42,979 bases of DNA from a virus, in the IMG/VR virus record IMGVR_UViG_3300024353_000014, positions 1-42,979 of that record, one strand, 5' to 3'. The notes beneath the pieces are model-generated. The model saw nothing but the letters and a program-made list of their open reading frames with translations, searched no databases and was not told the DNA's origin. The translations under genes were made by a program, and so were the position numbers. Below are positions 4,196-39,917 of the stretch, piece after piece (the first letter of the stretch is position 1; the number at the start of each line of letters is the position of its first letter).

Positions 4196-4225
4196 TTTTT
4201 CATTCTCCTATATTTACTGTGATTA

Positions 4226-4286
4226 GGGCAGTGGACTGCCCGGCTCTTTAAAAGAGCAGGTGCACCGGATTGCCCGAGGGTGCACC
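4226..4286 (-). promoter_or_regulatory. Three consecutive hairpins in the leader of the 189-aa structural gene
   Basis: In minus-strand order: GGTGCACC paired with GGTGCACC (4286-4279 with 4266-4259, 12-base loop), then GCTCTT/AAGAGC (4257-4243), then GGGCAG/CUGCCC (4241-4226, loop UCCA). They lie between a poly-T terminator and the Shine-Dalgarno of the gene starting at 4195. Likely a stable 5' untranslated region, or a promoter plus processed leader. Confidence 0.5.
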
Positions 4287-4294
4287 AAAATTAG

Positions 4295-4321
4295 AAAAAA
4301 AGGGGTGGGGTTCAAACCCAC
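4295..4321 (-). terminator. Hairpin plus T7 terminator
   Basis: Immediately after the TAG of the 155-aa gene, the minus strand reads GTGGG-TTTGAAC-CCCAC followed by CCC and seven T residues. It resembles an intrinsic terminator; archaeal polymerases also stop at such T tracts. Confidence 0.7.
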
Positions 4322-4322
4322 G

Positions 4323-4790
4323 CTAGGGTTCAGGTGGATCGTATTTTCCTTGCACCACGATGTCCAATGAGAAATCGTCGAATCCACTGGGTAAGTCAGG
4401 GTCAACAGTTAGAATCAGATACATCGCTGTGAACTCGCCTGGCATTAGATTGTAGGGTTGCTGAGTTATAGCTGTGAGATTCATGTACTGGGAGATGTTG
4501 CTTGGAATCCAGTTCTCTGCCCACACAGTGATGTTAATGGGTAAAGTTGGGCTAGGGTTGAAAACGTAGCAGCCGAAGGGTTTGGTTTCGCCAGGGGACA
4601 TCCATCCCCAATCAATGAAGTCTACTGTCTGATTTGTGTTAGCGTAAAGGTAGACTTCCACATCTATCTTCCTGATTTTACCCACACTGCCGATTCGCCT
4701 GTAAGCATACAAAGCCCCGGCGACAACTAGTGTGATGGCTATCGATAACGCGATCAGTCCATACATTTGGTTTTTAGTTGGAGGGTTCAT
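4323..4790 (-). CDS. Signal-anchored extracellular beta protein (155 aa)
   Basis: Seen: one hydrophobic segment at about residues 9-29 (GLIALSIAITLVVAGALYAY) followed by a beta-rich ectodomain with several N-x-S/T sites (NQT, NIT, NIS, NLT). The arrangement is like archaeal secreted or pilin-like proteins. The start ATG follows the 13-base leader GAGGAAACCAAGC plus two A, which also heads early genes in this genome. Flanking poly-T tracts at both ends suggest its own transcript. Function is not recognised; it could sit in the host membrane or envelope near the lysis/adhesion genes. Confidence 0.65.
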   Translation of the reverse strand: MNPPTKNQMYGLIALSIAITLVVAGALYAYRRIGSVGKIRKIDVEVYLYANTNQTVDFIDWGWMSPGETKPFGCYVFNPSPTLPINITVWAENWIPSNISQYMNLTAITQQPYNLMPGEFTAMYLILTVDPDLPSGFDDFSLDIVVQGKYDPPEP

Positions 4791-4792
4791 TT

Positions 4793-4805
4793 GCTTGGTT
4801 TCCTC
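4793..4805 (-). promoter_or_regulatory. Leader motif GAGGAAACCAAGC, copy 4
   Basis: The minus strand reads CGAGGAAACCAAGC, then AA, then the ATG of the 155-aa gene. The GAGG can act as the ribosome binding site. The 13-mer is identical to three plus-strand copies at 24951, 25087 and 27431. An A/T-rich stretch (AAAATAATAA, about 4845-4855) is a possible TATA element. Confidence 0.7.
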
Positions 4806-16197: not shown

Positions 16198-16396
16198 TAT
16201 ACGAGAATAGTATGGGGATTTGAATTATTAAATCACATTTCCATGGGAGATTCTAGCGCTGAAAACATACCCCCCCCTACCCTTTTACCATACCTCGTCG
16301 GTCACGGACGAAGTATCTATTCTCTCGAGGGTTTTAGTTTTCATGGTAAAACACCATTAAAAAATCGCTCGAGGTAAAATATAATTGCTGAACCTT
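16198..16396. promoter_or_regulatory. Gene-free control region A
   Basis: 199 bases without a gene. Contents: a T6 tract (minus strand, about 16357-16362) that may end the transcript of the gene starting at 16774; an ATGGT/ACCAT hairpin near 16342-16356; 8-base inverted arms GAGAATAG/CTATTCTC (16203-16210 and 16317-16324); the 44-base element also found at 37.4 kb; and a TATA-like TTTAATAA near 16226-16233 for the late block. Confidence 0.55.
16250..16293 (+). repeat. 44-base element A (C8 tract), inverted partner at 37405-37447
   Basis: Reads ATTCTAGCGCTGAAAACATA, C-run of eight, then TACCCTTTTACCATAC. About 39 of 44 positions match the reverse complement of 37405-37447. It is followed by a five-base-stem hairpin TCGTC/GACGA; the partner is followed by CTTCC/GGAAG. 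Confidence 0.8.
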
Positions 16397-23345: not shown

Positions 23346-24140
23346 TCAGTCTTGGACAGTTGGCGACACCTCCACTTTCAACGCCGAAAACCTTCGGCAA
23401 CCACTACTCCAGGGGGAAGAGTCACAGGCTTCGGGGATGAATTTACACACCTGCCGGTGACTACATTTGGCGCACCATTTCTCATAGAATGGTGATTCCA
23501 CATAGTTGGGGTCTAACATTTTTTTTTCCTCGTTCAAGTTGGGGATTGATGTTAGACGGTCAACTTCGCGCTTCAAGTCCTCAAAGAACACAAGCCTACC
23601 GAGATAGATCTGCGTGTACGCTAGGCTCTTATGGCGCATGATTCGCCTGAGGGTTTCAACACTGCCATGATGCTTGTAGATCCAGTTAGCAGCGAAAAAG
23701 TGCCTTAGCAACGTGGTGTTGATTTGATGCCAGTTGGGAATTCCAGTGCGAGACGCGTAGCGTTTGGTCATGTGATAAATTTCTTCGCGGGTTAAAGGCT
23801 CTTCAATGCTGCAGCTGTGTCCACGAGTGTGAGGTAGCCTTCGCACAACCAGGCTGTGATCCGGGTCCAAGCATTTCTCAATGAGCTTAGCGATGTCATA
23901 GGGCATAGGCACAGGAAACATCTTAGCTTTCTTGCTGTCTTCAACGTAGATGCACCCGTTTTCAATGTCGACCTGGCGCTTCCTGAGCAACCTGACCTCG
24001 CTGACTCGGAATCCCATCAGCGCAGGCAAGCTTAGAACTAGCTGATCACGGTTCCTCTTCGGAAAAGCCAGGAGGCTTTCAATGTCGGCCCTTCGGATTA
24101 TGATGGGCTCGCCTGACTGCTGATAAGGAACTGCTGTCAC
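23346..24140 (-). CDS. Compact tyrosine recombinase with C-terminal zinc motif (264 aa)
   Basis: Catalytic domain: ALMGFRVSEVRLL (Arg about 45), Lys 70/71 in VEDSKKAKMF, NTTLLRHFFAAN (box II Arg about 146, with Thr where the His of HxxR normally is), IMRHKSLAYTQIYLG (His 170, nucleophile Tyr 179). After it comes KWCAKCSHRQVCKFIPEAC...GC (Cys 223, 226, 232, 239, 248), a likely zinc site. The N-terminal core-binding domain is nearly absent. Could be an integrase or a dimer resolver; no tRNA attachment site is visible. GTG start adjoining the previous TAG. Confidence 0.8.
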   Translation of the reverse strand: MTAVPYQQSGEPIIIRRADIESLLAFPKRNRDQLVLSLPALMGFRVSEVRLLRKRQVDIENGCIYVEDSKKAKMFPVPMPYDIAKLIEKCLDPDHSLVVRRLPHTRGHSCSIEEPLTREEIYHMTKRYASRTGIPNWHQINTTLLRHFFAANWIYKHHGSVETLRRIMRHKSLAYTQIYLGRLVFFEDLKREVDRLTSIPNLNEEKKMLDPNYVESPFYEKWCAKCSHRQVCKFIPEACDSSPWSSGCRRFSALKVEVSPTVQD

Positions 24141-24425
24141 CTAGTCCTTCTCCCCTGACAGAATCTCCTGATGCACCAATGCGCTCAGCGGATAAAGCCT
24201 TATGTGAGCACTGGGACATCGCGTTGGTAGAGAGACAGGTGTTGTGAACGCATTGACTGAAGGTTGCCGAGCTGATGGGTATTTATGGTAAAAGTTCCAT
24301 AAAGGGCTATCTTGACTTGGGTTATAGAACATTTGAGGGAAAGTTATTTCACTTTGTACCGTGAACATTAAATCACTGCGCGCGCTTTCCAGTTGACCGT
24401 CTTCCGATTTTAAAACGCGCTTCAT
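24141..24425 (-). CDS. Unknown protein (94 aa)
   Basis: Ends exactly where the recombinase begins (TAG then GTG), so translation is coupled. No motif. A TATA-like TTTTATATA lies only about 10 bases before the first ATG (24425), so the true start may be the internal ATG at 24368 (MFTVQSEITFPQMF), giving a leaderless mRNA. Coding call is moderate. Confidence 0.5.
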   Translation of the reverse strand: MKRVLKSEDGQLESARSDLMFTVQSEITFPQMFYNPSQDSPLWNFYHKYPSARQPSVNAFTTPVSLPTRCPSAHIRLYPLSALVHQEILSGEKD

Positions 24426-24438
24426 GTATATAAAACCT
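24426..24438 (-). promoter_or_regulatory. TATA-like box before the recombinase operon
   Basis: The minus strand reads AAGGTTTTATATACATG. A start about 25 bases downstream would fall near 24403, inside the annotated 94-aa frame and ahead of its second ATG. Confidence 0.4.
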
Positions 24439-24453
24439 TACAAGGTTGATACA

Positions 24454-24798
24454 TTAACCCTGCCAGTAATAGTAGGTCGTTTCAGAGCTCGCAACCCACA
24501 AAACGCCCTCATTTTCATGTGTCCACACGGTGACAAAGCCTAAGTTCATTTTCACCGTTGCCACTTGCTGTTTAAAGATGGACCATTCGGTTGTTTGCTT
24601 GAAAATGATGCCGGGACGGGATGATTGGGCATCACTGAAAGAGTTCTCGTAAGCCTGAGTCACAAAGCCCTCTTCTTCTAACTCGGCAACCTTCCGGCTG
24701 AAAACTGAGGGCTCTGTCAGTCCGGATAGGACTACCCAGGTGATTATTACGACGCCAACAGCCGCAACAATTAGACCCCCTGTAAGTCGCTTTCCCAA
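24454..24798 (-). CDS. Signal-anchored small membrane protein (114 aa)
   Basis: One hydrophobic segment (GGLIVAAVGVVIITWVVLSGL, residues 7-27) and a beta-rich exterior domain ending TTYYYWQG. TTG start behind CAGGAG. First gene of the leftward early operon. Could be a membrane-exposed exclusion or signalling protein; nothing in the sequence decides. Confidence 0.6.
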   Translation of the reverse strand: MGKRLTGGLIVAAVGVVIITWVVLSGLTEPSVFSRKVAELEEEGFVTQAYENSFSDAQSSRPGIIFKQTTEWSIFKQQVATVKMNLGFVTVWTHENEGVLWVASSETTYYYWQG

Positions 24799-24834
24799 GT
24801 TGCTCCTGTTCCCTAAATATTTGTTGAGACTCTT

Positions 24835-24847
24835 CGTTTAATAAATA
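24835..24847 (-). promoter_or_regulatory. Leftward early promoter (TATA-like)
   Basis: The minus strand reads CTATTTATTAAACG about 40 bases upstream of the TTG start of the 114-aa gene; a start around 24815 leaves a short leader containing the SD AGGAG. Confidence 0.45.
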
Positions 24848-24874
24848 GATATGTGGTTCATGGGACGGGTTGAT

Positions 24875-24894
24875 TAGACTAGAACATTAGTCTA
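24875..24894. promoter_or_regulatory. Operator-like dyad TAGACTA-N6-TAGTCTA
   Basis: Perfect seven-base arms with a six-base spacer, also containing a direct repeat CTAGAAC 13 bases apart. It lies between the leftward early promoter and the structured RNA, so a dimeric regulator bound here could control both directions. Confidence 0.5.
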
Positions 24895-24902
24895 GAACAA
24901 AA

Positions 24903-24914
24903 ACCTATATTTTC
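24903..24914 (+). promoter_or_regulatory. TATA-like box for the structured RNA
   Basis: ACCTATATTTTC lies about 25 bases upstream of the 5' arm of the three-way-junction element, a distance that would put transcription start close to its first stem. Confidence 0.4.
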
Positions 24915-24928
24915 AAGTCGCAGGGCTG

Positions 24929-24995
24929 GGTGAGTGTGCCCCGGGGTTTTGAGGAAACCAAGCTCTCCGAAAAGAGCGCCGGTGCGACACTCACC
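24929..24995 (+). ncRNA. Predicted three-way-junction RNA with the GAGGAAACC motif
   Basis: Pairing is read directly. Outer stem 24929-24937 with 24987-24995 (GGTGAGTGT/ACACTCACC, 9 bp); it continues past a bulged G86 as G38-C85, C39-G84, a mismatch, and CCGG/CCGG (24941-24944 with 24979-24982). Inside are two hairpins: GGTTT-TGAGG-AAACC (24945-24959) and GCTCT-CCGAAA-AGAGC (24962-24977), joined by AA and closed by one G. No meaningful coding frame. It carries the first copy of the 13-base leader motif, with GAGG partly in the loop. Could be a small RNA, a regulator's decoy or a riboswitch-like leader for the plus-strand operon. Confidence 0.6.
24951..24963 (+). repeat. GAGGAAACCAAGC motif, copy 1 (inside the structured RNA)
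   Basis: Identical 13-mer to the mRNA leaders at 25087, 27431 and (minus strand) 4793. Here it spans the loop and 3' arm of one hairpin and the first bases of the next, and is not followed by a convincing gene start. Confidence 0.75.
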
Positions 24996-25020
24996 GCATG
25001 AAGGACAACGATGGAAACAG

Positions 25021-25030
25021 GTTTAAAAAC
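25021..25030 (+). promoter_or_regulatory. Second TATA-like box (GTTTAAAAAC)
   Basis: Preceded by the purine-rich GGAAACAG, like an archaeal BRE plus TATA. It could give an additional start upstream of the better-supported TATA at 25056. Confidence 0.3.
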
Positions 25031-25055
25031 GTTCCTAGACGTTGGATGCACATGA

Positions 25056-25099
25056 TTTATAAGACTCACATTGCATCTGAGACGTCGAGGAAACCAAGC
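25056..25099 (+). promoter_or_regulatory. Rightward early promoter-leader cassette, copy 1
   Basis: TTTATAAG (25056-25063), GCATCTGA starting at offset 18 and CGAGGAAACCAAGC ending the block. The copy at 27400-27443 has the same three parts at identical distances (TATA to GAGG is 31 bases in both). GAGG is then the ribosome binding site of the TTG start at 25101. Confidence 0.65.
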
Positions 25100-25100
25100 G

Positions 25101-25388
25101 TTGGAAACAACCGAGACCCCCACAATTAAGATGGAAGACGACATAGCTCACCTGGCTGACAACATTAACTTTAGAGAAGTAATCAAAGGGCTTTTTGAGC
25201 GTAACCCAGACCCTGTGAAAAGATATTATTGGCCTACAATTGGCACCATACGCTTTACACAGGACAAAGACGGCGTGTGGATTGGCAAAGTTGAAACCAC
25301 ATTCACAATGCACGATCACCTGACCATGCTAGCACGTAGCCTCAACAACACAAGCGCTAACCTGATGAAAGGAGGCGATCTGATTTGA
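25101..25388 (+). CDS. Unknown acidic protein (95 aa), first gene of early module B
   Basis: TTG at 25101, ten bases after GAGG in the conserved leader, preferred over the upstream TTG at 25071 that lies inside the promoter cassette; ATG at 25131 is another option. Sequence has MEDDIAHLADNINFREVIKG and GTIRFTQDKDGVWIGKVETTFTM, a small alpha-beta protein. Ends in GGAGG and TTTGA, overlapping the next start. Confidence 0.6.
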   Translation: METTETPTIKMEDDIAHLADNINFREVIKGLFERNPDPVKRYYWPTIGTIRFTQDKDGVWIGKVETTFTMHDHLTMLARSLNNTSANLMKGGDLI

Positions 25389-25537
25389 ACGCACTAGCAT
25401 CGAGGCATTGGGCTGGATACCTACCGAAGAAACACATCTGCCCGGTATGCAACGAAACAATAGAGTGCTACGACCTCAGAACTTTCCAAGACCATATAGA
25501 ATGGTGTAAAAGAAAGGCGGCTAAGAAATGTCAGTGA
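25385..25537 (+). CDS. Single zinc-finger mini-protein (50 aa)
   Basis: TTG behind GGAGG. Contains HICPVCNETIECYD and DHIEWCKRKAAKKC, a CxxC plus H-x3-C finger. Overlaps genes on both sides. Probably nucleic-acid binding. Confidence 0.65.
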   Translation: MNALASRHWAGYLPKKHICPVCNETIECYDLRTFQDHIEWCKRKAAKKCQ

Positions 25538-25644
25538 TAGGCAGCGACTTTTACTTCAACACCATCATTGAGGAAGATGGCAAGCGCTACAAGCTCGTGT
25601 TTAATAGCTGGAACAAGAAAGTCAAGAAGGTGCACATCAAATGA
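25528..25644 (+). CDS. Mini-protein (38 aa), unknown
   Basis: MSVIGSDFYFNTIIEEDGKR then YKLVFNSWNKKVKKVHIK; likely a small beta hairpin with a basic tail. ATG overlaps the previous stop and its TGA overlaps the next ATG (ATGA). Confidence 0.5.
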   Translation: MSVIGSDFYFNTIIEEDGKRYKLVFNSWNKKVKKVHIK

Positions 25645-25985
25645 GCGATGAAGCACGTGACGCAGTGGCTGCACTCAATACATGGGCGCGCGCTATGATG
25701 ACAGGGGGAAAACGTCCCCAAGCACCCAAACAGAAATCCAGATATATTTATTGGTTCACCCCCAAGGGCTGGACAGGCACAGTCTACCGATTTGGATATA
25801 CTCCCTGGAAACAAACCATCCACGATGTGAAAGCCTACTGGGCACTGAAATATAGGATCTACAAAGATGGCAGTCGCAAGCTAGTGAAAGCCGTCAAATT
25901 TGCGAAACGACGAGTAGCTAAAGCAAGAGCCTACAAATGGTATGTGGAATATTACCTGCCGAAGGAGGTGACACCTGATGCTTGA
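25641..25985 (+). CDS. Basic aromatic protein (114 aa), unknown
   Basis: Second half is strongly basic (YRIYKDGSRKLVKAVKFAKRRVAKARAYKWY). The middle has YWFTPKGWTGTVYRFGYTPWKQTI. Possibly nucleic-acid binding. ATG overlaps the upstream stop; downstream gene starts inside its last codons behind GGAGGTG. Confidence 0.55.
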   Translation: MSDEARDAVAALNTWARAMMTGGKRPQAPKQKSRYIYWFTPKGWTGTVYRFGYTPWKQTIHDVKAYWALKYRIYKDGSRKLVKAVKFAKRRVAKARAYKWYVEYYLPKEVTPDA

Positions 25986-26115
25986 AGCTGTTCTAGGGAC
26001 TTGTGCGATACTCGCCACTGCAGGCGGCATCATAGGCTTTATCGGAATCATTATGAAGAAGCTGAACTGCGACAAAGAAGTGAAGATCGCTGAGATTGCA
26101 CACGCTAGAAAATAG
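25978..26115 (+). CDS. Single-span membrane mini-protein (45 aa)
   Basis: ATG behind AAGGAGGTGACACCTG, one of the strongest SD sequences here. MLEAVLGTCAILATAGGIIG then FIGIIMKKLNCDKEVK: one membrane helix (residues 4-26) and a basic/acidic tail. Possibly inhibits or signals at the membrane. Confidence 0.6.
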   Translation: MLEAVLGTCAILATAGGIIGFIGIIMKKLNCDKEVKIAEIAHARK

Positions 26116-26148
26116 GCAGGCTTAGGGGGAAAGGAGACCTAGATTTTT

Positions 26149-26469
26149 TTGGCTAGGAAAATACGTCGTACACCTAGAAACTGGGGGGATCTAAAATCCT
26201 GTGAGGCTTATATCACTGTGGCTAAAGAAGAGCCAGCAGGACACTTCACTGAGCCATGGTATAGCATCGACACAATCTGCAAAGGCTGTCAAATGCATTG
26301 CGGAACAGCCTCACCGATCAGAAAAAAGGTAGACCTGCAACCCGCCTTTTTGAAGCACGTGGCTCGCATCAGGGATTGCCTGGAAGGCCGGAAGAACAGA
26401 ACTCGAGGTGTCCACATTTTCATCGAGGACTTTAGAAAAGCACAGAAAGGTTTGGAGGTGTTTACTTGA
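26149..26469 (+). CDS. Cys-containing protein (106 aa), unknown
   Basis: TTG start behind AAAGGAG. Contains SIDTICKGCQMHCGTASPIR (CxxC-x2-HC, a possible zinc or redox site), then a basic helical region (FLKHVARIRDCLEGRKNRTRG). Ends in GGAGGTG and overlaps the next TTG by four bases. Confidence 0.55.
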   Translation: MARKIRRTPRNWGDLKSCEAYITVAKEEPAGHFTEPWYSIDTICKGCQMHCGTASPIRKKVDLQPAFLKHVARIRDCLEGRKNRTRGVHIFIEDFRKAQKGLEVFT

Positions 26470-26636
26470 GTGGAATGTATGTGATGAGTGGCAAGCCTTC
26501 TGTGACAATCAGGATCTATAACAACAAGCGAAAACAAGCGCCGATCGTAATCGACATCTATGGCGACAATGAACCTAAAGATGTTGAACGCTTTATCAAA
26601 GATGCACTAGCCAGAGAAGGAGCTAAGATTCAATGA
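26466..26636 (+). CDS. Small protein (56 aa), unknown
   Basis: TTG behind GGAGGTG. Beta strand pair PSVTIRIYNNKRKQAPIVID followed by an acidic helix (EPKDVERFIKDALAREG). Overlaps the next gene by ATGA. Confidence 0.55.
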   Translation: MSGMYVMSGKPSVTIRIYNNKRKQAPIVIDIYGDNEPKDVERFIKDALAREGAKIQ

Positions 26637-26869
26637 GCACTGACAAAGTCCCAACTATGACGCCAAAGAACTGGCTGGAATTTCAGAAGCTGCAGCGCAT
26701 AAAAGTGGGGTATATGGCGGCGATCAACGTCAACAACCAGATGGCTAAACAACACGCGTCTGTTAGACGATGCGTCGACTTAGTCAACAGGCAAATCAGG
26801 GCTGAAATCAAAATTTGCCAAAGCCACATTGACAAGTTGATGCACTGGGTTGTTCAAGAATCCCCATGA
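26633..26869 (+). CDS. Helical protein (78 aa), unknown
   Basis: Mostly helical with basic residues (NWLEFQKLQRIKVGYMAAIN, RRCVDLVNRQIRAEIKICQS). Last gene of the first early-B transcript, followed by a T8 terminator. No family recognised. Confidence 0.55.
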   Translation: MSTDKVPTMTPKNWLEFQKLQRIKVGYMAAINVNNQMAKQHASVRRCVDLVNRQIRAEIKICQSHIDKLMHWVVQESP

Positions 26870-26899
26870 TGAAAACAGGCAGCCAGCCACTAAAACCTC

Positions 26900-26907
26900 T
26901 TTTTTTT
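26900..26907 (+). terminator. T8 terminator
   Basis: AAAACCTC followed by eight T residues, 31 bases after the stop of the 78-aa gene; the archaeal type of terminator needs only such a tract. Confidence 0.6.
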
Positions 26908-26945
26908 CACAAATACCCTAGATTAAAGGTGTGTCGAAAGTCATC

Positions 26946-26999
26946 GTTACGTAGTTACATACTATGTATTGGAAAGCAATCCTTATGGCGTGACGTAAC
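26946..26999. promoter_or_regulatory. Control region with palindromes before the HTH gene
   Basis: Arms GTTACGT (26946-26952) and ACGTAAC (26993-26999) flank a perfect 13-base palindrome TACATACTATGTA (26956-26968). Fits operators for the helix-turn-helix protein encoded just downstream, i.e. autoregulation (inference). Confidence 0.5.
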
Positions 27000-27048
27000 T
27001 ATAGCATAGCCTTAGATTTGAGAGCAATGGGTAAGGGGGTCTAAATAA

Positions 27049-27330
27049 TTGACTAAACTCGCAAAGCTGAGCGATAAGGAGATTGAGCTACTGGACATGA
27101 TGGTTAGTCTTGTTAAGAAGGGGGAAAGGGACAAATCACGCATTTACATGCTGTCAGCCAGTAAACTAAAGCTCTCAGGTGACACCGTCCGAGCGCGTGT
27201 CAGTAGGTTGAAAAGCAAATATGAGGTTTTGATGTACACAATTAAAGAGATGAGAGGTTATCAACAAATATTTTTCCAGCGAACCGGGGGGAGATTTAAT
27301 CCGCTAAGTCGCCGGGGGAAATCAAAATGA
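27049..27330 (+). CDS. Helix-turn-helix regulator candidate (93 aa)
   Basis: LSDKEIELLDMMVSLVKKGER then YMLSASKLKLSGDTVRARVSRLKSKYEVL: the second helix pair SASKLKLSGDTVRARVSRL has the form of a sigma4/LuxR-like recognition helix-turn-helix. The C terminus is basic. TTG start behind AAGGGGG. Sits between a palindrome-rich region and a conserved promoter cassette. Confidence 0.6.
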   Translation: MTKLAKLSDKEIELLDMMVSLVKKGERDKSRIYMLSASKLKLSGDTVRARVSRLKSKYEVLMYTIKEMRGYQQIFFQRTGGRFNPLSRRGKSK

Positions 27331-27399
27331 GAAGCGCGCGCGCATAAGAAACAGGCAGAATCCAAGTAGTCGACATTCCCGAAGCGCGCGAAGAGGGCG

Positions 27400-27443
27400 T
27401 TTAAATAAGGCTCTCAGCATCTGACAGAACGAGGAAACCAAGC
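27400..27443 (+). promoter_or_regulatory. Promoter-leader cassette, copy 2
   Basis: TTTAAATAAG at 27400, GCATCTGA at offset 18 and CGAGGAAACCAAGC at the end, with the same spacing as at 25056-25099. It leads straight into the next gene. Confidence 0.65.
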
Positions 27444-27682
27444 TGAAGAACCCTGAAATATTAAAGCGGAACGACAATGGAAGCGTCATAGTTAGAATCA
27501 GTGAAACAACCTGTCTAGTTTTAGTGAAGGCCAAGGAAGGCGAGCCAACACACGAAAGCGGATGGTACATAATTAGAAGCTACTCGCCGAAAACACTAGG
27601 ATGGGAAGACTACCCAAGACCAGGCTGCGGCGAAACCTGGTGGATAAACAAGGACATAGCCAAACTGCTGGAGTTGAACTAA
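27443..27682 (+). CDS. Small protein with probable CTG start (79 aa)
   Basis: The open frame following the leader has no ATG, GTG or TTG at its beginning; a TGA closes it upstream at 27421-27423. The CTG at 27443-27445 is eight bases after GAGG and aligns with the ATG of the gene that follows the same leader at 4790. Protein: KNPEILKRNDNGSVIVRISE, then ESGWYIIRSYSPKTLGWEDY and CGETWWINKDIAKLLELN, plausible and Trp-rich. TAA adjoins the next ATG. Unknown role. Confidence 0.6.
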   Translation: MKNPEILKRNDNGSVIVRISETTCLVLVKAKEGEPTHESGWYIIRSYSPKTLGWEDYPRPGCGETWWINKDIAKLLELN

Positions 27683-28045
27683 ATGACGCGCGTGAAACTG
27701 ACAGTAGCCGAGAAAATGGGACGCTACACAGAAAAGCTGGCTCGCTGGGAGCAAGACAACATTGAGCAAGGACCCTGCTGGCGATGTAAGAAGAGTCGCT
27801 ATATACGAAACCCTGAGCTCAAACTAAACGAGTTAATGTGTGAAAGCTGTGGCTCAAAACTCATCTTTAGCACTTTCGAAGAATTTAGACGCGGACGAGC
27901 CCACGCGACTGAGTATAGAGCTGACAGGGCAAAGATGGAACTGGAACAAACCCAGCGAGAACTAGCAATGACTGAGAAAGAACTAAACCGAAAGACGTGG
28001 TTGCTCATACGAGCACGCGTTGAAGCAAGGAAGTGGCGATACTGA
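27683..28045 (+). CDS. Zinc ribbon plus coiled-coil protein (120 aa)
   Basis: CWRCKKSRYIRNPELKLNEL then MCESCGSKL form a C4 ribbon (about residues 32-57), followed by a charged coiled coil (AKMELEQTQRELAMTEKELN). ATG directly after the previous TAA. Likely a nucleic-acid-binding oligomer. Confidence 0.65.
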   Translation: MTRVKLTVAEKMGRYTEKLARWEQDNIEQGPCWRCKKSRYIRNPELKLNELMCESCGSKLIFSTFEEFRRGRAHATEYRADRAKMELEQTQRELAMTEKELNRKTWLLIRARVEARKWRY

Positions 28046-28412: not shown

Positions 28413-28569
28413 CTGCGCGCGCAATGGCGTGACTGAAAGGAAAATGACTAAGCGCGCGCGCGAGGGATTAGAGTTGTGCCCGAAAGGTTATGCTTGGTGT
28501 ATTGCTGATTGTGACCAAGGTCAAGAATGTGACAAATGCGACATAGACTCATATCTCCATCCAAGATAG
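28399..28569 (+). CDS. Cysteine-rich mini-protein (56 aa)
   Basis: MNCPNCARNGVTERK then CPKGYAWCIADCDQGQECDK and CDI: eight Cys. ATG behind GGGGGATCTA (SD GGGGGA). It overlaps the previous gene by 14 bases. Contains two GCGCGC runs in its first 20 codons. Confidence 0.6.
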   Translation: MNCPNCARNGVTERKMTKRAREGLELCPKGYAWCIADCDQGQECDKCDIDSYLHPR

Positions 28570-28583
28570 GAGGTGCTTAAAAA

Positions 28584-28703
28584 ATGAGGCTATCTATAAG
28601 AATTGAGTTAATTGTTGGAGAAACAGTGATTCTCAGAAAAACGATTCCTATTGACAAGATTAGATTTGACAACTTCAAAATACTAAAGGTGCTTAAAAAA
28701 TGA
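28584..28703 (+). CDS. Mini-protein (39 aa) in a repeated-junction array
   Basis: ATG behind GGAGG. MRLSIRIELIVGETVILRKT ending KILKVLKK. Its end (GGTGCTTAAAAAATGAGG) is also the RBS and start of the next gene, a junction repeated at three successive genes. Unknown. Confidence 0.45.
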   Translation: MRLSIRIELIVGETVILRKTIPIDKIRFDNFKILKVLKK

Positions 28704-28828
28704 GGACTAACGGAAAGATTCATCCTGAATGGCTCAGTGTAACCATAACACGCTTTCATCATTATACACTGATTGGTTGGAATATGACGATTTACCCGAA
28801 TGGTAGTTGGGAAGGGCTTAAAAAATGA
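28700..28828 (+). CDS. Mini-protein (42 aa) in a repeated-junction array
   Basis: MRTNGKIHPEWLSVTITRFH ... NMTIYPNGSWEGLKK. Overlaps both neighbours by ATGA; starts and ends at copies of the GCTTAAAAAATGAG junction. Unknown; beta-rich. Confidence 0.45.
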   Translation: MRTNGKIHPEWLSVTITRFHHYTLIGWNMTIYPNGSWEGLKK

Positions 28829-29106
28829 GCAAGAGGAAAGAGCTAGTCTGTAGTTACTGCGCTCGCTCGTTTCAACGTGTCAGGAACAACCGGAACACAC
28901 GGTGTCCGAAATGCGGCAGATCTGGACCCCACACACGTGTGGTTGAAGGACCACCGGTAAAACGTCACTTGCGCGCGCGCATAATTTTAAGATGGCTAGC
29001 GCTGACCGGTTTTAGATGCCCTAAAAAAAGTCTATGCGCTCAAGCGTTGCTGAGCCAGTTGGACATACGTGGGGTTCAGGTCCACACCTATGTAGCGGAA
29101 GCCTAA
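28825..29106 (+). CDS. Zinc-ribbon protein (93 aa)
   Basis: LVCSYCARSFQRVRNNRNTR then CPKCGRSGPHTR: C4 ribbon (residues 9-31), with a basic middle (KRHLRARIILRW). Last gene of early module B; its 3' end overlaps the converging methyltransferase gene by 75 bases, so opposing transcripts could interfere. Confidence 0.6.
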   Translation: MSKRKELVCSYCARSFQRVRNNRNTRCPKCGRSGPHTRVVEGPPVKRHLRARIILRWLALTGFRCPKKSLCAQALLSQLDIRGVQVHTYVAEA

Positions 29107-30870
29107 GTCCCTCGCCATGAGGCAGGATGTCCCGGCGCCTGCGAATGGATCTAAAAGGACACCTGGCTGAAAACCTGCATCGCACTTACAGCTCTGCCAC
29201 TCAACCTTTTTCCTGAGTTTAGTCACAAGGCTAGCGCTCGAATCACCTATGACCTTCGTTACTCGGACACGTGGCCTGCCACATTTGACGCATACTTGCT
29301 CAGGACATCCAGCTTTCAACACGAGCTCAACGAGCGCGGGGGGAAACGTCGCAAAGTGAGCACCCTTAAAGGGCTTGGTGTTGATTCGCCAAAGGTCACC
29401 TGGGTTCTTGCCAAGTGGGTGATATTGCTCGCTAGTTCCAGCCTCAATGCCTCTGGTGTTAAATTCAGAATGCCCGCCATACTTCCGCTTCGAGCCAGGT
29501 ATCACTACGTCACTAGGGTTCTTGCCCAACGGGTGATGAGATTTATTGTGCAGTGGATCATCATAAGCGCCTTTACCAACTCGGTCGACTGCTTGGTCAT
29601 GCTTGGTTGGAGGCAGGAGGAATACAGCGTTAAGGAATACGTCACCGGGATTCTTGCCTAGCGGATGGCCATCATGGTCGTGAATGTAAGCGATATATTT
29701 CTTCTGGGTTTCCACGTCACCGGGGAAAAGCTGACGGGCTATGCGCCTCGAGATCGCACGTCGTTGAGCTGTGGATTGCACCCGGACAAAAGCCTGCAGT
29801 GTCTGACCATGTTTGCCAGGTTTAAACTTGCTTTTGTAAGTGGCCACCACGTCCCCAGGGTTCTTACCCAATGCATGTCCTGTGTGGCCTAGACGCATTA
29901 CATCTCTCGATCGGTCAATTGGCATAGCCAGTGGACCACGAGAAAGCTGTTCTGCTGTCACGACATCGCCAGGGTTTTTGCCAAGCGGGTGCTGCCCAAT
30001 GTAGCCGCCGGGATTCAAGTCTTGCTCACGCGCGCCGGTGTCGTGTTTTGGTGTGGGGGTGTCGTGTCTTTTGCGGCCGATGTCTTTGAGGCTCGTGTGA
30101 GGCATCCGGACATTGTCCAGGTCAAAGAAGTAGCGCCGGCCTTTGCTGAACATGAAAACTTCCTCGTATGCGCAGGTGAACCGGTCTTTCACGCTGGAGG
30201 GCATGTGATTGTGCTTGTACCAGATAATTTTGTTCCGGAGTAGCCACCCGTCGTCCTGCATCAAAGCCGCTAGCCGGGTAGGTATAAGCATTAATTGTTT
30301 AGGTCTCAGCCACTGGCTGCCATCACTCTTTTGGGGTGGGATTCCAGCGTAGTTTAATGCGCCTTTGCTAGTCATTTGCTTACAGGGATTCTTGAATTTC
30401 TGACCCCTGCCACCGCCGAAAAATGTGTCACCCATCACTAACCAGAATGTGCCGGTGGGTTTGAGCACGCGCTTGAAGGATTGAAACACCTGCACCAGAT
30501 GGTTCATGTACATTCGAGGGTGAGGCTCAAGACCAAGTTGCCCAATCCAGCCGCCACATTCCTCGCAGAACAATCCTTGGGCAGGCTTCTTGAACAGTGC
30601 TTTCTTCAAGTGGTTGCCTACGTCGCTGTTTTTGCCAGCTCGAAACCTAAACCTGTCAGTATGACCATCGCTTAGATCTCGAGTCCACACGTGTTCACAG
30701 TCAAGGTCACCATTCCAGAGCTTGATTGTTTCATGACCATAGTTTCTGAGAGCCCAATACGGAGGCGACGTCATGATAACGTCAATGCTGTCAAGTGGAA
30801 AGTGATTGAGCACTTCCTGTGCAGCGCCGCATAAAATTTGGTTCTCAGGTAGATCTAGCAAAACAATCAC
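29032..30870 (-). CDS. Beta-class DNA methyltransferase with five GKNPGDV repeats (612 aa)
   Basis: Order IV-TRD-I: VIMTSPPYWALRNYG (motif IV, about 32-46) at the N terminus, motif I DPFAGAGTSCLMA and IGVDLNPTYV at the C terminus. N4-cytosine or N6-adenine specificity is not decidable. Normal enzymes of this group carry one GKNPGDVW followed by HFATFP; here (H)PLGKNPGDV-type motifs occur about residues 291, 331, 400, 443 and 481, separated by 30-60 dissimilar residues, and only the last is followed by AHFATFP. A zinc knuckle (CEHVW...CEECGGW) and CVKCG/CKC are also present. Last gene of the late block. Confidence 0.85.
   Translation of the reverse strand: MIVLLDLPENQILCGAAQEVLNHFPLDSIDVIMTSPPYWALRNYGHETIKLWNGDLDCEHVWTRDLSDGHTDRFRFRAGKNSDVGNHLKKALFKKPAQGLFCEECGGWIGQLGLEPHPRMYMNHLVQVFQSFKRVLKPTGTFWLVMGDTFFGGGRGQKFKNPCKQMTSKGALNYAGIPPQKSDGSQWLRPKQLMLIPTRLAALMQDDGWLLRNKIIWYKHNHMPSSVKDRFTCAYEEVFMFSKGRRYFFDLDNVRMPHTSLKDIGRKRHDTPTPKHDTGAREQDLNPGGYIGQHPLGKNPGDVVTAEQLSRGPLAMPIDRSRDVMRLGHTGHALGKNPGDVVATYKSKFKPGKHGQTLQAFVRVQSTAQRRAISRRIARQLFPGDVETQKKYIAYIHDHDGHPLGKNPGDVFLNAVFLLPPTKHDQAVDRVGKGAYDDPLHNKSHHPLGKNPSDVVIPGSKRKYGGHSEFNTRGIEAGTSEQYHPLGKNPGDLWRINTKPFKGAHFATFPPALVELVLKAGCPEQVCVKCGRPRVRVTKVIGDSSASLVTKLRKKVEWQSCKCDAGFQPGVLLDPFAGAGTSCLMARDLGFRYIGVDLNPTYVQLAQQRLSA
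29394..30005 (-). repeat. Five-copy GKNPGDV coding repeat in the methyltransferase
   Basis: On the plus strand the repeats read as variants of ACGTCGCCAGGGTTTTTGCC or GTCACCGGGATTCTTGCC near 29396, 29514, 29645, 29850 and 29964. The nucleotide variants differ at silent positions, so the copies are not recent identical duplications. Confidence 0.8.
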
Positions 30871-37404: not shown

Positions 37405-37447
37405 GTATGGTAAAACATAGGGGGGGGTATGTTTTTCGCGCTAGAAT
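37405..37447 (-). repeat. 44-base element B (G8/C8 tract), inverted partner of 16250-16293
   Basis: The minus strand reads ATTCTAGCGCGAAAAACATA, C-run of eight, TATGTTTTACCATAC; one gap and a few substitutions relative to element A. Orientation relative to the local genes is opposite to that of A. Confidence 0.8.
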
Positions 37448-39375: not shown

Positions 39376-39917
39376 TTACTCGACAAAAATAATCACTGGG
39401 AAGGGGGTGAGCATCACCGTCTCTTTCAACGGTTCTAGCTCACCCACGTGGTTATGCTTTCGCATAATGCACTGGGAGGAAGGGGGAAAGTGAAAAACCC
39501 CCTTCCAGGTTATGTACGACTCTGGGTGTACTGATGTCGAGACAGTACCATGAGGTAATATAAGCGGCGCTCGTCTAACCGGTTTCTCAGGAACCCCCCC
39601 GATCGTAATGGAAGAGGTGGAGGGGTCAACCAAGCTCGTTGGGTTGCCTATGTATGAAGCTACACTTTCCAGGTTGCCTCCGCAACGTGGATGGCAGTAG
39701 CCCGGCCTAGCCTGTCACACACATAGTCCTCAACTGTCGGTGACGTGGCGCCTTGGTGTGGCATCGTGATATAGTGAGGGGGGAAATGGGATCTGGGGGG
39801 GAAAACTGAGGCACCAACACGACACCCATCCTTGCCGAGTGAAGCCTCAAATTCCCACTCTAATGCTTGGAACTGATTTCTTGGTTCTGGTGTTTGCGTT
39901 CTAGATGCAGTGTTTTC
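39376..39917 (-). pseudogene. Broken or frameshifted gene (two overlapping open frames)
   Basis: Frame 1 (39917-39660): ALEWEFEASLGKDGCRVGAS ... VEDYVCDRLGRATAIHVAEA, no usual start. Frame 2 (39714-39376): NLESVASYIGNPTSLVDPST ... KGVFHFPPSSQCIMRKHNHV, first start TTG at 39633. Both look protein-like and join if the frame moves by -1 near GCAACCTGGAAAGTG; no standard slippery site is present. C7 and C6 tracts upstream are error-prone. Probably a tail protein disrupted by mutation or assembly errors. Confidence 0.45.

Follow-up and report, generated by a model that had tools for sequence, protein, structure and literature searches.

The DNA analysed here is a viral contig of 42,979 bp (the window), in which a portal, terminase, tape measure, integrase, and DNA methyltransferases are recognised (PHROGs or Pfam), and its source is a head-tailed archaeal virus. 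Relatives of the terminase are carried by four Bathyarchaeota MAGs, at 55–60% identity, so that the host is, judged from these matches, most likely a bathyarchaeon; the closest viral relative (IMGVR_UViG_3300034378_000220) has a terminase identity of 62%. Leftward genes and rightward early genes flank a divergence zone at 24799-25130, an intergenic gap of ~330 bp (Table 1). The virus would be a temperate tailed virus of Bathyarchaeota, and this gap would lie in its divergent early control region. The AT skew turns at about 24900-25000. A palindrome with arms AGACTA and TAGTCT around GAACAT (AGACTAGAACATTAGTCT, 24876-24893), located between the three-way-junction element described below and the leftward promoter, is likely an operator. 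Homologs of the early genes were not detectable in the terminase relatives examined.

Table 1. Positions in the window of the element, its predicted transcript, the leader motif copies, and the flanking genes and promoter-like sequences.
Feature	Position	Strand	Basis or remark
Three-way-junction element, near-palindromic, folds on both strands	24929..24995	(-) preferred	folding of both strands
Predicted small RNA, ~102 nt	24899..25000	(-)	TATA-predicted start plus T5 run (inferred)
TATA-like box TTTTTAAA of predicted small RNA	25022..25029	(-)	rank 58/85,942 on minus strand
U5 tract, terminator-like end of predicted small RNA	24899..24903	(-)	T5 run 22 nt past fold
Anti-leader GCUUGGUUUCCUC, CCUC in hairpin loop, UU in junction	24951..24963	(-)	folding
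Weak TATA-like stretch invoked in the earlier note	24904..24913	(+)	CCTATATT rank 687, TATATTTT rank 1295
TATA box TTTATAAG of rightward early promoter	25056..25063	(+)	rank 5/85,942 (TATA matrix)
Leader motif GAGGAAACCAAGC before possible start TTG 25101	25087..25099	(+)	predicted transcription start 25085.5
TATA box TTTAAATA of second early promoter	27400..27407	(+)	rank 4/85,942 (TATA matrix)
Leader motif running into possible CTG start 27443	27431..27443	(+)	predicted transcription start 27429.5
Leader motif 2 nt before ATG 4790 of gene 4323-4790	4793..4805	(-)	exact match
Leftward genes	24454-24798, integrase 23346-24140	(-)	divergent side of control region
Rightward early genes	from ~25101	(+)	divergent side of control region

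Folding of both strands reveals that 24929-24995 forms a three-way junction. In particular, the plus strand forms a stem of 9 bp, 2 bp, and 4 bp, with single-base interruptions between the segments. Two hairpins, of 6 and 5 bp, cap this stem, and the junction has 2 and 1 unpaired bases. The MFE of -33.8 kcal/mol compares with a mean of -19.97 for shuffled sequences (sd 3.55), giving a z of -3.9, and the architecture drawn in an earlier note on this DNA is reproduced, with one hairpin of 6 bp in place of 5. The fold of the minus strand has a z of -4.39 and an MFE frequency of 0.60, versus 0.21 for the plus strand. The element is the most stable local fold of up to 80 nt on either strand of the whole window. 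A genome-wide calibration, for which the window was shuffled in 200-nt blocks (n = 24, folds of up to 73 nt), gave a best fold of -35.7 or lower in 5 of the 24 shuffled windows, indicating that stability alone is not exceptional (P of ~0.2 genome-wide). The fold is notable chiefly because it lies within the ~330-bp intergenic gap, beside promoters, a placement that makes chance less likely but still not negligible. The earlier view that the element matches no nameable RNA class is borne out by Rfam covariance models, which gave no match, to the c4 antisense RNA family or otherwise (23500-28000 at E ≤ 5, whole window at E ≤ 1); ARAGORN calls no tRNA gene. Elsewhere in the window, a second stable three-way-junction fold, unlike the element in sequence, occupies the intergenic gap before gene 39376-39633 (39647-39726, minus strand, -34.8 kcal/mol).

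The centre of the element carries a 13-mer, GAGGAAACCAAGC (24951, plus strand), that recurs exactly at 25087(+), 27431(+), and 4793-4805(-), as had been claimed of three viral mRNA leaders, and that, counted with its complement, is the only 13-mer found four times in the window. All three gene-linked copies end 0–2 nt before possible start codons (TTG 25101, CTG 27443, and ATG 4790). Read from the sequence, TTG 25101 and CTG 27443 are possible starts: the former shares its frame with ATG 25131, and the latter is in frame with ORF 27524-27682. Gene 4323-4790 encodes a membrane protein conserved among related viruses; its homolog in the closest relative (62% terminase identity) retains only CTCGAGG of the motif. 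Copies 25087 and 27431 begin 1.5 nt past the transcription starts predicted from strong TATA boxes, and the copy at 4793-4805 (minus strand) lacks a strong TATA at a fitting distance. Because copies lie at predicted starts and just before possible start codons, GAGGAAACCAAGC resembles a short 5′ leader that includes a Shine-Dalgarno, GAGG being a Shine-Dalgarno-like core, and this is the simplest reading of the motif in the mRNAs. In two of the three leaders the motif is predicted to be mostly unpaired.

The repetition of GAGGAAACCAAGC is a property of this virus, since the motif is found only 0–2 times per genome in 257 Bathyarchaeia genomes, with 27 of 30 fetched matches within an ORF. A DNA search of the same 257 genomes returned no multi-copy match of the element, and a solitary CRISPR-repeat mimic (anti-CRISPR RNA) was rejected on these results.

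The window contains several further repeats. A 25-nt repeat around GGTGCTTAAAAAATGAG is present in three copies at successive gene junctions (28564-28829). A 29-nt repeat is present in five copies, with a period of 114 or more (29395-29993), within DNA methyltransferase gene 29032-30870, where it encodes a repeated HPLGKNPGDV in the middle of the enzyme. Two intergenic inverted copies of 30 nt with ATACCCCCCCCTA lie 21 kb apart (16250-16293 and 37405-37447). The intergenic stretch 4196-4322 comprises tandem hairpins and a tRNA T-arm-like GGTTCAAACCC, has a counterpart with GAGTTCAAATCCCGG at the matching place in the closest relative (L112:2247-2400), and may represent a terminator or else an attachment site within a tRNA gene.

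Searches of IMG/VR, the 257 Bathyarchaeia genomes, and Rfam returned no homolog of the element. DNA searches of 42 related virus records and the 257 genomes gave short chance matches only, the best of which, 22 nt exact, does not adopt the fold and lies inside a gene that is metallo-beta-lactamase-like. A single-sequence covariance model recovered only the window itself from ~1 Mb of relatives, and its one match in the 257 genomes (E 0.03) is expected by chance. In scans of IMG/VR, neither the promoter-leader composite nor the hairpin core gave a match. A scan for TATA plus motif gave 50 loci, but none of them had another copy or encoded a relative of any window protein, and one-mismatch motif copies in relatives have contexts that look like coding sequence. 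Nothing was found when IMG/VR was scanned with the proteins of the first early gene, the portal, and the integrase, or when the region was compared with phage records by blastn. Among integrase relatives in Bathyarchaeia, the best is L157, whose divergent early region lacks such a fold. In 17 other viral or MAG loci, the repeated 13-mers include no equivalent leader family, and a palindrome family occurs in one virus only: a related virus (L109, G032) has at least 7 mostly noncoding copies around GGATAGAAATTCTATC (e.g. at 382, 499, 1096, and 3289), probably a set of repressor operators.

A stem scan of IMG/VR revealed three intergenic 67-nt elements (L145:5688-5754, L146:2217-2283, and L147:10309-10375) that have the same arms (GGTGAGTGT/ACACTCACC). 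They were rejected as kin, since their interiors differ and fold poorly and, judged by eye, they look like transposon ends; their interior TTTAATTTGTCGTC is reminiscent of Tn7-like transposon ends.

The strand of the element was assessed with TATA ranks from a crude home-made matrix (85,942 scored positions) and with a promoter/terminator test devised after the locus had been seen. The TATA-like box that had been placed at the right distance before the element on the plus strand (24904-24913) is weak, ranking ~690th to ~1300th. Transcription from it would start within the outer stem (~24933), and the RNA that remains has an unremarkable fold, with a z of -1.5. There is no T-run after the element on the plus strand, and the plus-strand reading with its own promoter is not supported. 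On the minus strand, the box at 25029-25022 has a predicted start at 24999.5, four nt before the stem; read on the plus strand, as TTTAAAAA, the same box ranks 2, scores higher than on the minus strand, and could serve rightward transcription instead. T5 runs number 38 on the minus strand in 43 kb. A TATA-predicted start lies at the 5′ end of two of 325 stable folds on both strands, and, in this post hoc test, only 24929-24995 on the minus strand has both such a start and a T5 run within 45 nt. In these predictions the minus strand fits the element better than the plus strand, having the better box, the better-defined fold, and an aligned U5 tract.

We propose that the element may be a minus-strand gene for an antisense small RNA directed against the leaders of three viral mRNAs, a reading of sequence and predicted folds to which we give somewhat less than an even chance. 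Leftward transcription would be driven by the TATA box at 25029-25022, with a start near 25000; it would cross the three-way junction and terminate at the U5 tract (24903-24899), yielding an RNA of ~100 nt. The anti-leader GCUUGGUUUCCUC comprises 13 nt exactly complementary to the three GAGG-containing leaders, and the loop CCUC and junction UU of the minus-strand RNA are predicted to be 0.99 unpaired. The hairpin loop would offer CCUC for first contact, whereupon the small hairpin would unzip and the adjoining strand would extend the pairing to the 13 nt of GCUUGGUUUCCUC. Such pairing would cover the GAGG Shine-Dalgarno as far as the start codon and would keep ribosomes from binding, so that two early genes and one gene in the leftward structural block would be repressed. 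By RNAduplex, pairing of the minus-strand RNA with the leaders has energies from -30.5 to -34.8 kcal/mol, and each co-fold with a leader is 6–7 kcal/mol better than the separate folds. Complementarity is automatic for the opposite strand of any repeat and therefore does not by itself choose the strand. The earlier note had suggested a decoy as one possibility; its structured element carrying a motif shared with three mRNAs is supported, but the decoy role is not. A decoy needs the plus strand and would put much of the motif in a hairpin, in contrast to the mostly unpaired motif predicted for two of the three leaders. Antisense pairing by the minus-strand RNA accounts for the exact 13-nt identity at least as well as a decoy.

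In the main rival reading, the 13-mer is a promoter-leader cassette that has been duplicated and that unites a start site with a Shine-Dalgarno; it may serve a viral regulator as a DNA site as well. The copy at 24951 would then be one more such site, within a fold that has no RNA function. We regard this as possible but rather unlikely. Intergenic promoter repeats of 58 and 29 bp, with a TATA box and a conserved start-site motif, are known in halovirus HF2 (PMC8707807), and copies 25087 and 27431 resemble such cassettes, having a common TATA spacing and, a few nt upstream, a common GCATCTGA; copies 4805 and 27431, moreover, stay similar into the coding start, and the frequency of equally stable folds in shuffled windows (5/24) would suit an incidental fold. 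The HF2-type layout (TATA at about -26, motif at the start site) is, however, found only at copies 25087 and 27431, being absent from 24951 and equivocal at 4805. The 24951 copy differs in lacking a strong TATA at the right distance and a following start codon and in its intergenic placement inside the window's best short fold, and the 13-mer is not palindromic.

It is less likely that the element acts as a plus-strand RNA, either a free small RNA or a structured 5′ leader of the rightward early transcript that hides the Shine-Dalgarno-like GAGG or binds a protein shared with the leaders. The plus-strand fold (z -3.9), the sense orientation of the motif for rightward transcription, the turn in AT skew, and an ATG at 24998, the start of a 43-codon ORF whose end lies 1 nt short of ATG 25131, are all consistent with such an RNA. 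Against it are the weak nearest TATA, with a predicted start that strips most of the outer stem, the missing T-run, and the position of the strong rightward TATA boxes (25022 and 25056) downstream of the element.

A function at the level of DNA, as a cruciform or as a replication or recombination site in the divergent control region, is improbable: the near-perfect dyad is intergenic, folds equally on both strands, and adjoins integrase genes and the separate palindrome AGACTAGAACATTAGTCT, but simple DNA sites do not usually show a three-way architecture whose hairpins are well defined, no iterons accompany the element, and there is no clear cumulative-skew minimum at the element itself. Slighter still is the chance that the leftward genes (24798 and integrase) have the minus-strand RNA as their 5′ leader or attenuator, with the same minus-strand TATA in use and the U5 tract as a possible attenuator, since those genes have a TATA-like box of their own (24845-24838; predicted start ~24815, ~17 nt before TTG 24798).

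Bacterial phages are well known to control lysogeny and early genes through RNA. The proposed antisense small RNA resembles the c4 RNA of phages P1 and P7 (77 nt) and the sar RNA of P22 (68/69 nt), which target ant mRNA, and of which c4 probably has its complementary sequences in loops and acts around the ribosome site (PMC12197685). Like these, it would be a short structured phage RNA with a loop-exposed complement (by prediction), and its 13-nt match lies around the ribosome sites of the leaders, where it is predicted to act. It differs in that the virus is archaeal and a single 13-nt anti-leader would face three mRNAs, in place of one; having no Rfam match, it is not a member of the c4 family.

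In the archaeal-virus literature examined, antisense RNA is described only as counter-transcripts in phiH, namely in halovirus phiH1 (PMC6210493). The element would likewise provide antisense RNA in an archaeal tailed virus, but its targets would lie elsewhere in the genome, in trans. The same mode of action has been reported in an archaeon: a trans-encoded sRNA of Methanosarcina mazei, host-encoded rather than viral, masks a start codon together with its ribosome binding site (PMC3432209).

The antisense proposal makes sharp predictions as to strand, ends, targets, and a 13-bp pairing. If it is true, one small RNA would act as a one-to-many switch, being matched to a leader that early genes have in common with structural ones. 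The wider claim, that a trans-acting antisense small RNA silences several of the virus's own mRNAs through one shared 13-nt leader and would thus constitute an RNA-controlled viral regulon in Bathyarchaeota, is more doubtful, and we put it forward as an attractive but rather unlikely outcome.
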